DNA of 64,000 nt, from assembly GCF_035953295.1 (NCBI RefSeq), contig NZ_CP108370.1:7611001-7675000 (forward strand). Direction: 5' to 3'. The notes under the pieces are model-generated. The model had not been told where the DNA came from. It saw nothing but the letters and a program-made list of their open reading frames with translations, and did not search any database. The position numbers and the translations under genes are program-made. Of this stretch, positions 16,034 through 61,303 are shown piece by piece (position 1 is the stretch's first letter; each line of letters begins with the position of its first letter). Origin of the DNA: Streptomyces sp. NBC_01335 (lineage in GTDB: Bacteria > Actinomycetota > Actinomycetes > Streptomycetales > Streptomycetaceae).

Positions 16034-17851
16034 TCAGCTCCGGTCGGCGGACGGCGCGGTCGTGGTGGTGCCCTCCGCACGGGAGGCCATCACCCTGACG
16101 CTTCCGGACCGGAATACGTCCGTGGGCGTCAGAGTGAGGCCCTTCCGGCGTGCCTGCGCCGACAGCTGGATGCCGAGCAGCGAATTGCCGCCGAGCGAGA
16201 AGAAGTTGTCGTCCAGGCCCACCCGCTGGACGCCGAGCAGCTCCGCGCACAGATCGGCGAGCAGTTTCTCGGCCGCGGTCATCGCGGTGTCCGCCTCATC
16301 GGCTGCCGCGGCCGGGCCGGGCTCCGGCGGCAGAGCGGCGACCAGGGCCGCGCGGTCGACCTTGCCCTGCGGGGTCAGCGGCATCCGGTGGACGAGTACC
16401 ACAGCGGACGGCACCAGGTACGACGGGAGCCGGCTCGCGGCGTACGCGCGCAGCCCCTCGGCCAGGTCCGTCCTCTCCCCGGTGGCCTGGGCCTCCGGTA
16501 CGACGTGCGCCACCAGGCGCAGCCCGCCGGGCATGGACACCGGGGTGACGCAGACCTGCGCGACGCGGTGGTCAGTCAGCAGTGCTGTCTCCACCTCGCC
16601 GGGCTCGACACGGTGTGAACGGATCTTCACCTGCTGGTCCTTGCGCCCGATGAACACCAGGGTCCCGTCGGGGCGCATCCGGACCAGGTCGCCCGTCCGG
16701 TACATCCGCGCACCCCGCGCGTCGAACGGATCGCGGACGAAGCGCTCCTCGGTCTGGTCCGGCCGGTTCAGGTAGCCAAGGGCCAACTGGTCTCCCGCGA
16801 GGAAGAGTTCACCGGTCGCTCCTTCTGCCACCGGCCGCAGCTGTTCGTCCAGCACATGGACGCGCACTCCGGGCGCGGGCCTGCCGATCGGGACGGGTCC
16901 ACCGGTCAGTTCGGTTTTCGGGTCGACGCGGTGTGTGACACAGCCCACGGTTGCCTCGGTGGGACCGTACTCGTTGGTCACCGCCGCACCCGGCGCCCGG
17001 CGGCGCCACGCGTCGAGTTGCTCACCGAGCAACTGTTCGCCACCGACGACCAGGTCGACGGTGGCGAGGGCGGACTGCGGCAGAGCGTCCAGGACAGCCA
17101 GGTGGCTGGGCGTCACCTTGAGGAAGGTGACCGGGCCGTCGGTCCCCGCGTCGTCGGCGGTGCCGTCCGGGTCGAGCAAGGGGGCGACCCGGACGGCACC
17201 GCCCGCCGACAGCGGTCCGAAGAGCGTGGTGACAGTGAGGTCGAAGGAGACCGCCGAGTGCAGCAGGGCAGTGCCGGCGAGGCCGGGGTAGGCATCGAGG
17301 GCCCATCCCAGATAGGCCGCCAAGCCGCGATGGGGCACGACGACACCTTTGGGCGTGCCGGTGGACCCGGAGGTGTGGATCACGTATGCCGGGTCCTCCG
17401 CCCGTACCGCGCGCCCGCGTTCGTCGTCCGTCACCGTGTCGCCGGGAAGGGCTTCCAAGGCGCGCAGCGTCCCCGGGGCGTCCAGGTCCAGCCGGGCCAC
17501 CGCTGTCGCCGGGGTGTAGGAGCCGGTGGTGAGCAGTACGGCGGGCCGGGCGTCGTCCAGGACGGCGGCGACGCGCGCCGCCGGATGGTCCACGTCCAGA
17601 GGAATGTAGGCGGCGCCCGCCTTGAGCGCAGCATAGAGCGTGACGATCAGCTCGACGGAGCGGGGGAGCGCGACGGCGACGATGCCGCCGGCTCCTACGC
17701 CCCGGGCCAGCAGGTGGCGTGCGAGCCGATTGGCCCGGGCGTCCAATTCGGCGTAGCTTACGGTTCTTTCGCCCTCCTGCACCGCGAGCGCCGCGGGGTT
17801 TCGGACCACCTGCGACTCCAGCAGTTCGTGGGCGAAGACGACATGGTTCAT
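16034..17851 (-). CDS. Stand-alone NRPS adenylation-PCP didomain, predicted Asn-specific
   Basis: A 605-residue protein with an adenylation domain (residues about 1-510) and a carrier domain (about 525-590, phosphopantetheine Ser in DNFFSLGGNSLLG near 557). A3 reads TSGSTGTPKG and A10 reads TPQGKVDRAAL. Reading the specificity pocket by alignment to GrsA gives D-L-T-K-V-G-E-V-G-K, essentially the asparagine code. No condensation or thioesterase domain is present, so the loaded amino acid must be passed to another enzyme. ATG 17851 has GAGAGG upstream; the open frame beyond it lacks NRPS similarity. It is cotranscribed with the oxygenase at 14948-16003. Confidence 0.93.
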   Translation of the reverse strand: MNHVVFAHELLESQVVRNPAALAVQEGERTVSYAELDARANRLARHLLARGVGAGGIVAVALPRSVELIVTLYAALKAGAAYIPLDVDHPAARVAAVLDDARPAVLLTTGSYTPATAVARLDLDAPGTLRALEALPGDTVTDDERGRAVRAEDPAYVIHTSGSTGTPKGVVVPHRGLAAYLGWALDAYPGLAGTALLHSAVSFDLTVTTLFGPLSAGGAVRVAPLLDPDGTADDAGTDGPVTFLKVTPSHLAVLDALPQSALATVDLVVGGEQLLGEQLDAWRRRAPGAAVTNEYGPTEATVGCVTHRVDPKTELTGGPVPIGRPAPGVRVHVLDEQLRPVAEGATGELFLAGDQLALGYLNRPDQTEERFVRDPFDARGARMYRTGDLVRMRPDGTLVFIGRKDQQVKIRSHRVEPGEVETALLTDHRVAQVCVTPVSMPGGLRLVAHVVPEAQATGERTDLAEGLRAYAASRLPSYLVPSAVVLVHRMPLTPQGKVDRAALVAALPPEPGPAAAADEADTAMTAAEKLLADLCAELLGVQRVGLDDNFFSLGGNSLLGIQLSAQARRKGLTLTPTDVFRSGSVRVMASRAEGTTTTAPSADRS

Positions 17852-56376: not shown

Positions 56377-56609
56377 TCACGTGCCTCGGTGAGGATGCCA
56401 CCCGGTTGTTCCTCCCGTCCGCACTCGGCATACCGCTCCACGAGCCCTTGTGAACAAGGTGGTTGAAGTGACGGGAAGTTCCTGGGGATGCTCGTGCATA
56501 CCGTGTGACAGGTGTGGGTAGCTTGCGCTCGCCAGCAAATCGGCGTGCCGTTTCTCACGACTCGCCGGGTCCGACGAGTCGCGTGACACTCCCGGGAGGA
56601 GGTGCAGGG

Positions 56610-56690
56610 ATGAAGCTCCTTTTCGCCATCCGTAACAAGGTCGCGGCCACCAAGAGCCTCAAGGCGAGCGCTTGGTACATCTGGTACTGA
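56610..56690 (+). CDS. Atropopeptide (tryptorubin-type) precursor peptide
   Basis: A 26-residue peptide with a basic amphipathic leader (MKLLFAIRNKVAATKSLKAS) and C-terminal core AWYIWY, followed directly by TGA. GGGAGGAGG lies 7 nt before the ATG, a very strong site for so small a frame. Tryptorubin A is a hexapeptide of exactly this sequence whose aromatic side chains are cross-linked by a P450, so the core and the P450 at 56815 together identify the family. A hairpin separates the two genes, fitting excess precursor transcript. No protease gene is adjacent; leader removal must rely on host peptidases. Confidence 0.92.
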   Translation: MKLLFAIRNKVAATKSLKASAWYIWY

Positions 56691-56723
56691 GCGTGACGCT
56701 CGGCCACGTCGCCGAGTAGACAA

Positions 56724-56763
56724 CGTTGTCCGGCACTCCGCTCCGGTGGGGTGCCGGACAACG
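56724..56763. terminator. Perfect hairpin between precursor and P450 genes (attenuator)
   Basis: CGTTGTCCGGCAC (56724-56736) and GTGCCGGACAACG (56751-56763) are perfect 13-bp arms around a 14-nt loop. It sits 34 nt after the precursor stop and 51 nt before the P450 start. It probably acts as a partial terminator or RNA stabiliser so the precursor is made in excess of the enzyme, as in many RiPP operons. Confidence 0.75.
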
Positions 56764-56814
56764 GTCAGCCGCACTGTTCCCTCAACACCTTCTTCCCCCT
56801 GCAGCGGAGCCACG

Positions 56815-57867
56815 ATGTCGCCGTCATCCACAGTGCGCCCGCGCACCACCGTGTTCGCACCCCGCTTGGCCGCGCTCCTCGACAAGCACGTGGGCCAGGA
56901 CGTCTTCCGGCTGGAGCCGGACACGGTCGGGGTCGCCGGGGTCGAGGTCGCCGACCGCATCCTTTCCGCGCGCCGGGCCACCGAGACGGAGCGCCCGACC
57001 TTCAAACCCCTGCACGGGCGTTCCATAGCGCGTGGTGAGGCTTCCGCCGTCACCCGCACGATCGGCAGCGACGTACGCGCGGCACTGGCCGCCTACGAGC
57101 CGCGGCAGGTGGACCTCTCCGGGTCCTGGCCGCTGACCGGGCACCTCTTCCTGCGCGACCTCATCCTGGGGCAGGACCCCTACCGGCTGCGCCTGCTCAT
57201 GAGCCGCTACCTCGAACTGACGCCCAAGCTCACCTGGTCGGTCATCGCGCTCGGCGCCGCCCTGCCCGGCTGGCCCCGGCCGGGCGACCGGCTCACCGGG
57301 CTCGGCGCACGGGCGGCGGAGGCCACCGGCTACCAGGACCGCCGGTACGCGTTGGGCATGTACCGCCGAGCGGCGGCCCCGGTCTGCTTCACCGTCTCCA
57401 CCCTCGTCGCCAACGCGCTCTGGCTCGGGTCGCCCCTCGACGACAGCACACCCAACCGGCACCTCATCCATGAGGCGTTGCGGATGCTGCCACCGTCCTG
57501 GAACATCCTGCGCAACGCCTCACCGGAGTATCCCGTCATCGACGACCGGATCGGCGAGCACGACGACGTCCTGCTGCTGCCCCTGCTGTCCCACCGCGAC
57601 CCCGCCCTGTGGGACGACCCGGACAGCTTCCGTCCGGAGCGCTGGAACGATCTCGATCCCGACACCGCTCCCGGCTACCTGCCGTTCGGCCACTCCTCGG
57701 AACGCTGCTGGGGCCGGCACATGGTGATGCCCCTCGCCGAACTCCTGCTCGACCTCATCCGCGGCTCCGGACTGGTGGTCGACCCGGACCAACGGACCGG
57801 CAAGGTGCCTCTCCTCGGCCTGTTGGGCGTGGAGGACGTACGGCTGACACGGCCGTACCGCGTCTGA
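56815..57867 (+). CDS. RiPP-modifying cytochrome P450 (atropopeptide cross-linking)
   Basis: A 350-residue P450, shorter than usual (about 400). The ExxR motif is HEALRMLP near residue 220, the PERW motif FRPERWNDLD, and the heme motif FGHSSERCWG with Cys near 297. The I-helix region (FTVSTLVANALW) lacks the normal AGxD/ET pattern, as in several P450s that couple aromatic residues by radicals. Position after the AWYIWY precursor makes it the enzyme that forms the C-C and C-N links between Trp, Tyr and backbone. No dedicated ferredoxin is present. Confidence 0.9.
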   Translation: MSPSSTVRPRTTVFAPRLAALLDKHVGQDVFRLEPDTVGVAGVEVADRILSARRATETERPTFKPLHGRSIARGEASAVTRTIGSDVRAALAAYEPRQVDLSGSWPLTGHLFLRDLILGQDPYRLRLLMSRYLELTPKLTWSVIALGAALPGWPRPGDRLTGLGARAAEATGYQDRRYALGMYRRAAAPVCFTVSTLVANALWLGSPLDDSTPNRHLIHEALRMLPPSWNILRNASPEYPVIDDRIGEHDDVLLLPLLSHRDPALWDDPDSFRPERWNDLDPDTAPGYLPFGHSSERCWGRHMVMPLAELLLDLIRGSGLVVDPDQRTGKVPLLGLLGVEDVRLTRPYRV

Positions 57868-61261: not shown

Positions 61262-61303
61262 CGCGCCGGTGCCGGGCAGGAGAACCTGCCCGGCACCGGC
61301 GCG
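61262..61303 (-). terminator. Perfect 19-bp-arm hairpin terminator
   Basis: Arms 61262-61280 and 61285-61303 are perfectly complementary (begin CGCGCCGGTGCCGGGCAGG) around an AGAA loop. It lies 115 nt past the chaplin stop and upstream of the amine oxidase gene, so it should end the chaplin transcript and insulate the next operon. Confidence 0.85.

Follow-up and report, generated by a model that had tools for sequence, protein, structure and literature searches.

A gene pair in Streptomyces sp. NBC_01335 that very probably encodes a tryptorubin-type atropopeptide, and the hairpin between its two genes

Do a gene of 26 codons, a hairpin and a short cytochrome P450 gene form a locus for a cross-linked peptide, and which peptide would it make? 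The question is raised by a stretch of 64,000 nucleotides of Streptomyces sp. NBC_01335 (contig NZ_CP108370.1, positions 7,611,001 to 7,675,000), called the window here, in which these elements follow one another on the forward strand between positions 56610 and 57867. We are highly confident that the pair is an atropopeptide locus, that is, a locus for a tryptorubin-type ribosomally synthesized and post-translationally modified peptide (RiPP), as a preliminary description of the same DNA had proposed. Loci of this kind are already charted: an NCBIfam model exists, more than 650 atropopeptide clusters have been charted by AtropoFinder (PMC11450843), and antiSMASH 8 names a new atropopeptide rule (PMC12230676). 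With such tools, the small gene of 26 codons is less easily missed than the earlier remark suggests. The less-charted part of the locus is the hairpin.

The precursor gene extends from an ATG at 56610 to a stop codon ending at 56690 and lies 6 nt behind the ribosome-binding site AGGAGGT (56597–56603, forward strand, read directly), which agrees with the strong site and the AWYIWY end described before. The gene encodes 26 residues, MKLLFAIRNKVAATKSLKASAWYIWY, consisting of the leader MKLLFAIRNKVAATKSLKAS, with KSLK at residues 15–18, and the C-terminal core AWYIWY. The precursor reached 58.1 bits with NCBIfam NF038372 (tryptorubin family RiPP precursor), above the cut-off of 33, and it was the sole match of this type (E ≤ 0.001) across the 8.36 Mb genome. 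Close relatives have ribosome-binding sites similar to that of the window, and the 8-mer GGAGGTGC recurred in 14 of the 19 upstream regions compared from close loci. When the differences between the window and 17 close relatives were summed, 97 synonymous and 63 non-synonymous codons were counted; non-synonymous divergence (dN) was 0.03–0.17 and synonymous divergence (dS) 0.31–0.87, which argues that purifying selection acts on the precursor gene.

The second gene (56815–57867, forward strand, ATG preceded by GGAG) encodes a P450 of 350 aa, and the motifs noted before were found in it. The protein carries the heme-ligand motif FGHSSERCWG (Cys298) and ExxR at residues 220–223; Cys298, Glu220 and Arg223 were invariant in all 28 rows of an alignment of 28 of 31 sequences, L035, L059 and L071 being left out (the L071 range contains a stop). 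The Pfam p450 model matched with 52.4 bits, covering only residues 217–312, and the predicted model of the protein shows a P450 fold. Judged by the Cys motif, ExxR and this predicted fold, the protein belongs to the cytochrome P450 superfamily. A genome-wide P450 search gave one full-length match, the protein itself, and one weak partial match with 27% identity. None of the seven listed NCBIfam P450-type models reached its cut-off; the best of them, NF050147 for the RiPP P450 ApyO (ApyO-type P450 of aminopyruvatides), gave 68.9 bits against an equivalog cut-off of 525, and this type was rejected. A further observation concerns P-x-C-F-T at residues 189–193 (window 57379–57393), which was invariant in 28 of 28 rows and lies in the long helix, where P450s usually carry the acid-alcohol pair.

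To recognize an atropopeptide locus from its sequence, PMC11450843 uses a class-defining P450 beside the precursor, KSLK or a close variant in the leader, and Trp at core position 2. All three are present here. The leader contains KSLK itself, which that paper places at residues 17–20, AWYIWY has Trp at its second position, and the P450 is assigned by its identity to relatives, their pairing with precursors and the P450 tree, indicating that it is of the atropopeptide-modifying kind. In a scan of species genomes, the best 80 of 86 confirmed P450 loci had P450s 54–85% identical to that of the window and came from Streptomyces, Kitasatospora, Streptacidiphilus, Kutzneria, another Pseudonocardiaceae, Nocardia, Xanthomonas, Luteibacter and Burkholderia. 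A KSLK-type precursor was located upstream of the P450 in 84 of 89 loci (scan loci, further relatives and the window); the five loci in which no precursor was found (L086, L087, L063, L069 and L078) were dropped before counting, and four near-copies (L084, L085, L088 and L090) were taken out of the counts over 80 loci and retained in the z-scores over 84. P450 matches at E < 1e-129 occurred in 9 of 61 genomes of the same genus, order and class, the window's own counted. The preliminary description had named clustering with ordinary small-molecule P450s as a finding that would speak against the locus; this did not occur among the family relatives compared, where the close P450 relatives adjoin KSLK-type precursors. 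Biarylitides, which have a five-residue precursor and a P450 clade of their own, were rejected on precursor length, the precursor here having 26 residues.

We also weighed the reading that the small open reading frame (ORF) arose by chance and that the P450 is an ordinary small-molecule oxidase. Twenty-six codons are indeed short, and the Pfam match is limited to part of the protein. Against this stand the NF038372 score, the presence of such a precursor beside the P450 at 84 of 89 loci, the signature of purifying selection, the ribosome-binding site and the failure of every listed P450-type model, the best of which is again a RiPP P450. Family score, pairing and selection led us to reject a chance ORF, which we regard as extremely improbable.

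For the locus as an atropopeptide cassette, the following pathway is proposed. The precursor would be translated and bound through the KSLK anchor of its leader by the neighbouring P450, which would take the C-terminal AWYIWY into its active site and oxidatively join aromatic side chains by three bonds, with the loss of six hydrogens. A protease from elsewhere in the cell would then release the hexapeptide, which is predicted to be tryptorubin A ([M+H]+ 895.377) and would become tryptorubin B (824.340) once Ala is trimmed off; these are the computed values for AWYIWY minus 6 H, with and without Ala. AWYIWY, the residues of tryptorubin A, is consistent with the formula C49H51N8O9+ of the hexapeptide of the lau locus. 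The computed ions equal the candidate hexa- and pentapeptide ions at that locus, 895.3760 and 824.3401 (PMC11450843). Precursor and P450 yield cross-linked peptides in a heterologous host, and the leader protease has been proposed to lie outside the cluster (PMC11450843, PMC12352619). We infer the cross-link pattern, the protease step and the product from these published relatives.

Whether the product is tryptorubin A/B itself depends on the bonds that this P450 makes. Several points weigh against it. The P450 is just 66% identical to the homologue of Streptomyces sp. SPB074, a strain linked to tryptorubin, and on the P450 tree the five rows closest to it by path carry AWYLWY instead of AWYIWY. 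In addition, ScaB turns LauA into a monocycle lighter by 2 Da, and with SvaB a single precursor ends in two bridging patterns (PMC12352619, PMC11450843). The locus could thus be an atropopeptide locus whose P450 links AWYIWY in another way, through one or two cross-links or a different connectivity, so that the product is a new relative rather than tryptorubin A: products differ by P450, and differ even with one P450, as the varsorubins and the monocycle from LauA and ScaB illustrate (PMC11450843, PMC12352619), and at least 10 changes of the AWYIWY label on the P450 tree imply that the P450s paired with this core are not one lineage. On the other side, the jum and amyxirubin P450s are 59% identical and yield the same product, amyxirubin B, and LauA with LauB1 gives tryptorubin B (PMC11450843). 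The lau cluster was identified by its similarity to the cluster of Streptomyces sp. MMG1121 (PMC11450843), whose P450 is 78% identical to that of the window. Taken together, tryptorubin A/B is in our view the rather likely product, and a relative with other bonds is possible, with clearly the smaller probability.

The core is not rare. Taking the last six precursor residues (eight for L080) as the core, we counted AWYIWY in 22 of 80 loci, AWYLWY in 21, AWYFWY in 13, AWYGWI in 6, SWYIWY and AWYHWY in 5 each, and others in 8. On a P450 tree of 79 rows (L061, whose frame ends early, was omitted), the AWYIWY label needed 13 changes, at least 10 of them forced by supported branches, and the starred group of 18 rows that holds the window contained AWYLWY 13 times and AWYIWY five times. 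These counts and the scatter over the tree suggest that AWYIWY is recurrent and labile at position 4. The scatter agrees with the remark in PMC11450843 that tryptorubin-core sequences fall into multiple clusters and that the core may have arisen several times. One Xanthomonas locus (L080:4481-4743) was seen to have two different tandem precursors, with the cores SWPHWY and AWEGYISY, followed by one P450; two-precursor loci are mentioned in PMC11450843.

Among known systems, the trp/try locus of tryptorubin A (PMC11450843) is like that of the window in its two genes, KSLK leader and AWYIWY core; the leader of the window differs (compare L049), as does the P450, at the 66% identity to SPB074 given above. 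The lau locus of Streptomyces laurentii (laurentirubin B / tryptorubin B) likewise has a KSLK precursor and a family P450, but it contains a further P450, which introduces an ether bond (PMC11450843), whereas none was present among the flanking genes tested in the window. The MMG1121 homologue (L081) has the core AWYFWY in contrast to AWYIWY. The amyxirubin, varsorubin, scabrirubin and cihunamide loci are named in the same family and share its defining P450; by the definition of PMC11450843 they also have KSLK in the leader and W as the second core residue. They differ in their cores and bond sets.

What, then, lies between the two genes? A hairpin of 18 pairs with the loop TCCG occupies 56724–56763 on the forward strand, identified by folding and comparison; it had been called perfect, which is true only when wobble is allowed, as 2 of the 18 pairs are G-U. 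The 124-nt spacer folded at −62.1 kcal/mol, compared with −43.5 (sd 3.9) for shuffled sequences, a z of −4.8. Unbroken stems of at least 16 pairs (G-U allowed, loop 3–10) occurred at four places in the 64-kb window, this hairpin included. Two other stems in the window have 19 Watson-Crick pairs each (17156–17203 and 61262–61303). The hairpin tail, GTCAGCCGCACT, has no T-run directly after the stem, and the hairpin was not listed by a scan for intrinsic terminators; a canonical intrinsic terminator was rejected. A dispersed repeat was rejected as well, the arm pair being present at one place in the genome. The only Rfam match lay below threshold (19.6 bits, gathering 41, E 0.71).

Strong folding of the spacer is widespread among the relatives. 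A z below −2 was obtained for the spacer in 53 of 84 loci, compared with 8 for control segments taken ahead of the precursor, 3 for segments within the P450 gene and 13 for segments beyond it. When each locus was scored by the hairpin with the most pairs in a span-limited fold, hairpins of −20 kcal/mol or lower were found in 70 of 80 spacers versus 24, 37 and 36 of the 80 upstream, coding and downstream controls, and hairpins of −30 kcal/mol or lower in 49 versus 6, 7 and 17. After thinning the P450s at 80% identity, the −20 kcal/mol level was reached by 32 of 35 spacers and by 8, 15 and 13 of 35 controls. Compensatory changes were seen in two alignments. Alignment A1, of the window's clade, holds 13 hand-picked loci of the 18 at ≥ 79.5% identity; over 13 sequences and 16 pairs, 95.2% of the cells paired and four pairs changed on both sides, against a mean of 1.3 in shuffles (7 of 500 reached four), with a covariation of 0.251 that fell to 0.034–0.109 when slid. 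Alignment A2, of another clade, holds 18 of 20 candidate hairpins (L034 and L042 omitted, several ends hand-trimmed); over 17 distinct sequences and 15 pairs, 93.5% paired and seven pairs changed on both sides (0 of 500 shuffles), with a covariation of 0.257 versus 0.016–0.119 when slid. Both alignments were chosen by hand, and relatedness among the sequences raises counts of this kind, so the compensatory change is good but not final evidence.

These results make it somewhat more probable than the opposite that the hairpin is a conserved RNA element, an attenuator or 3ʹ-end stabilizer that would keep precursor mRNA above P450 mRNA and would add to the cross-linking pathway proposed above. Supporting this are the z-scores, the hairpin counts before and after thinning, and the two-sided changes whose covariation collapses on sliding; furthermore, P450 supply can limit, as a ribosome-binding site placed before svaB raised the yield 100-fold (PMC11450843). 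On the opposing side, a hairpin of −20 kcal/mol or lower is missing from 10 of 80 spacers, 31 of 84 spacers fail to reach a z below −2, control segments of this G+C often contain moderate hairpins too, the hairpin sequence differs from clade to clade, weak or different hairpins occur at several Xanthomonas loci and at some of the close Streptomyces loci, A1 omitted five close loci with other hairpins, a few of its shuffles matched the observed count, and the missing T-run departs from a textbook terminator. Alternatively, the hairpin might be merely the inverted repeat of a DNA-binding operator that regulates the P450, since its left arm, GACAACGTTGTC, is a 12-base palindrome in the window and appears in close relatives as GACATCGTTGTC or similar. 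In those relatives, however, the left arm is an imperfect palindrome while arm-to-arm pairing is retained, other clades retain a hairpin of unrelated sequence, and the genome holds a single copy of the arm pair; we consider an operator unlikely.

Given the architecture of the locus, the hairpin most likely has a role in the balance of the two transcripts and would leave the precursor transcript stabler or more abundant than that of the P450, so it may set the precursor:P450 dosage. The wider proposal, that a compensatorily kept, sequence-shifting RNA hairpin between the genes sets this ratio throughout the atropopeptide loci of Actinomycetota and, less strongly, in those of Pseudomonadota, seems to us evenly balanced between true and false. 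The nearest parallel is the stem-loop of the thiopeptide precursor pbtA (PMC8269224), likewise a hairpin just past the stop codon, at which a RiPP precursor transcript ends; it belongs to a different family and was deduced from RNA-seq, whereas the hairpin in the window is proposed from comparison alone. A word search of the main texts of PMC11450843, PMC12352619 and PMC13417212 gave no mention of the hairpin; a literature search for tryptorubin with stem-loop found nothing, and one for lasso or lanthipeptide hairpins nothing relevant.

The surroundings appear unrelated to the pathway. Upstream of the gene pair lie genes for a SpoIIE-type phosphatase, a Sua5/YrdC-domain protein and an HMGL-like protein, and downstream, on the other strand, those for a GCS2-type ligase and a flavin amine oxidase; the flanking ORFs were taken from their longest starts, which may be wrong. 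When seven flanking ORF products were compared with 83 other loci (near-copies counted; flanks of at most 5 kb, less at several loci), only one locus had any match (SpoIIE, E 1e-15, 34% identity). GCS2 matched (E 1e-60) in 2 of 41 genomes, the window's own counted, and relatives of the SpoIIE product at 39–44% identity were present in 13 other genomes of the 41. With hardly any match at other loci, the flanking genes, GCS2 and SpoIIE among them, were rejected as pathway members, and the unit looks like a stand-alone two-gene cassette. The G+C content of the locus (70.0%) equals that of the window (69.9%) and gives no sign of recent import. A sigma-70 promoter scan found no promoter. Separately, GATTA-N(14-18)-GGGAAG, a motif picked after viewing the sequences and expected about zero times by chance, lies 75–118 nt ahead of the precursor ATG in 12 of the 80 loci, all from L003-L014 and L082, and seven of these 12 have GATCTTCAC 63–67 nt ahead of the ATG; this is perhaps the promoter of the closest clade. 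In the window the GATTA half is absent, and GGGAAGTTCC lies 137 nt ahead of the precursor ATG.

The locus offers another source of a tryptorubin-type P450, in a family in which two genes assemble a strained, shape-chiral peptide that is laborious to make by chemical synthesis (PMC12352619). Should the hairpin control dosage, production would have a simple handle, in line with the 100-fold gain from the ribosome-binding site before svaB (PMC11450843). And if the shared hairpin proposed for the family proves true, the cluster, so far described as two genes, would have a third functional part, and production a point at which it can be tuned.
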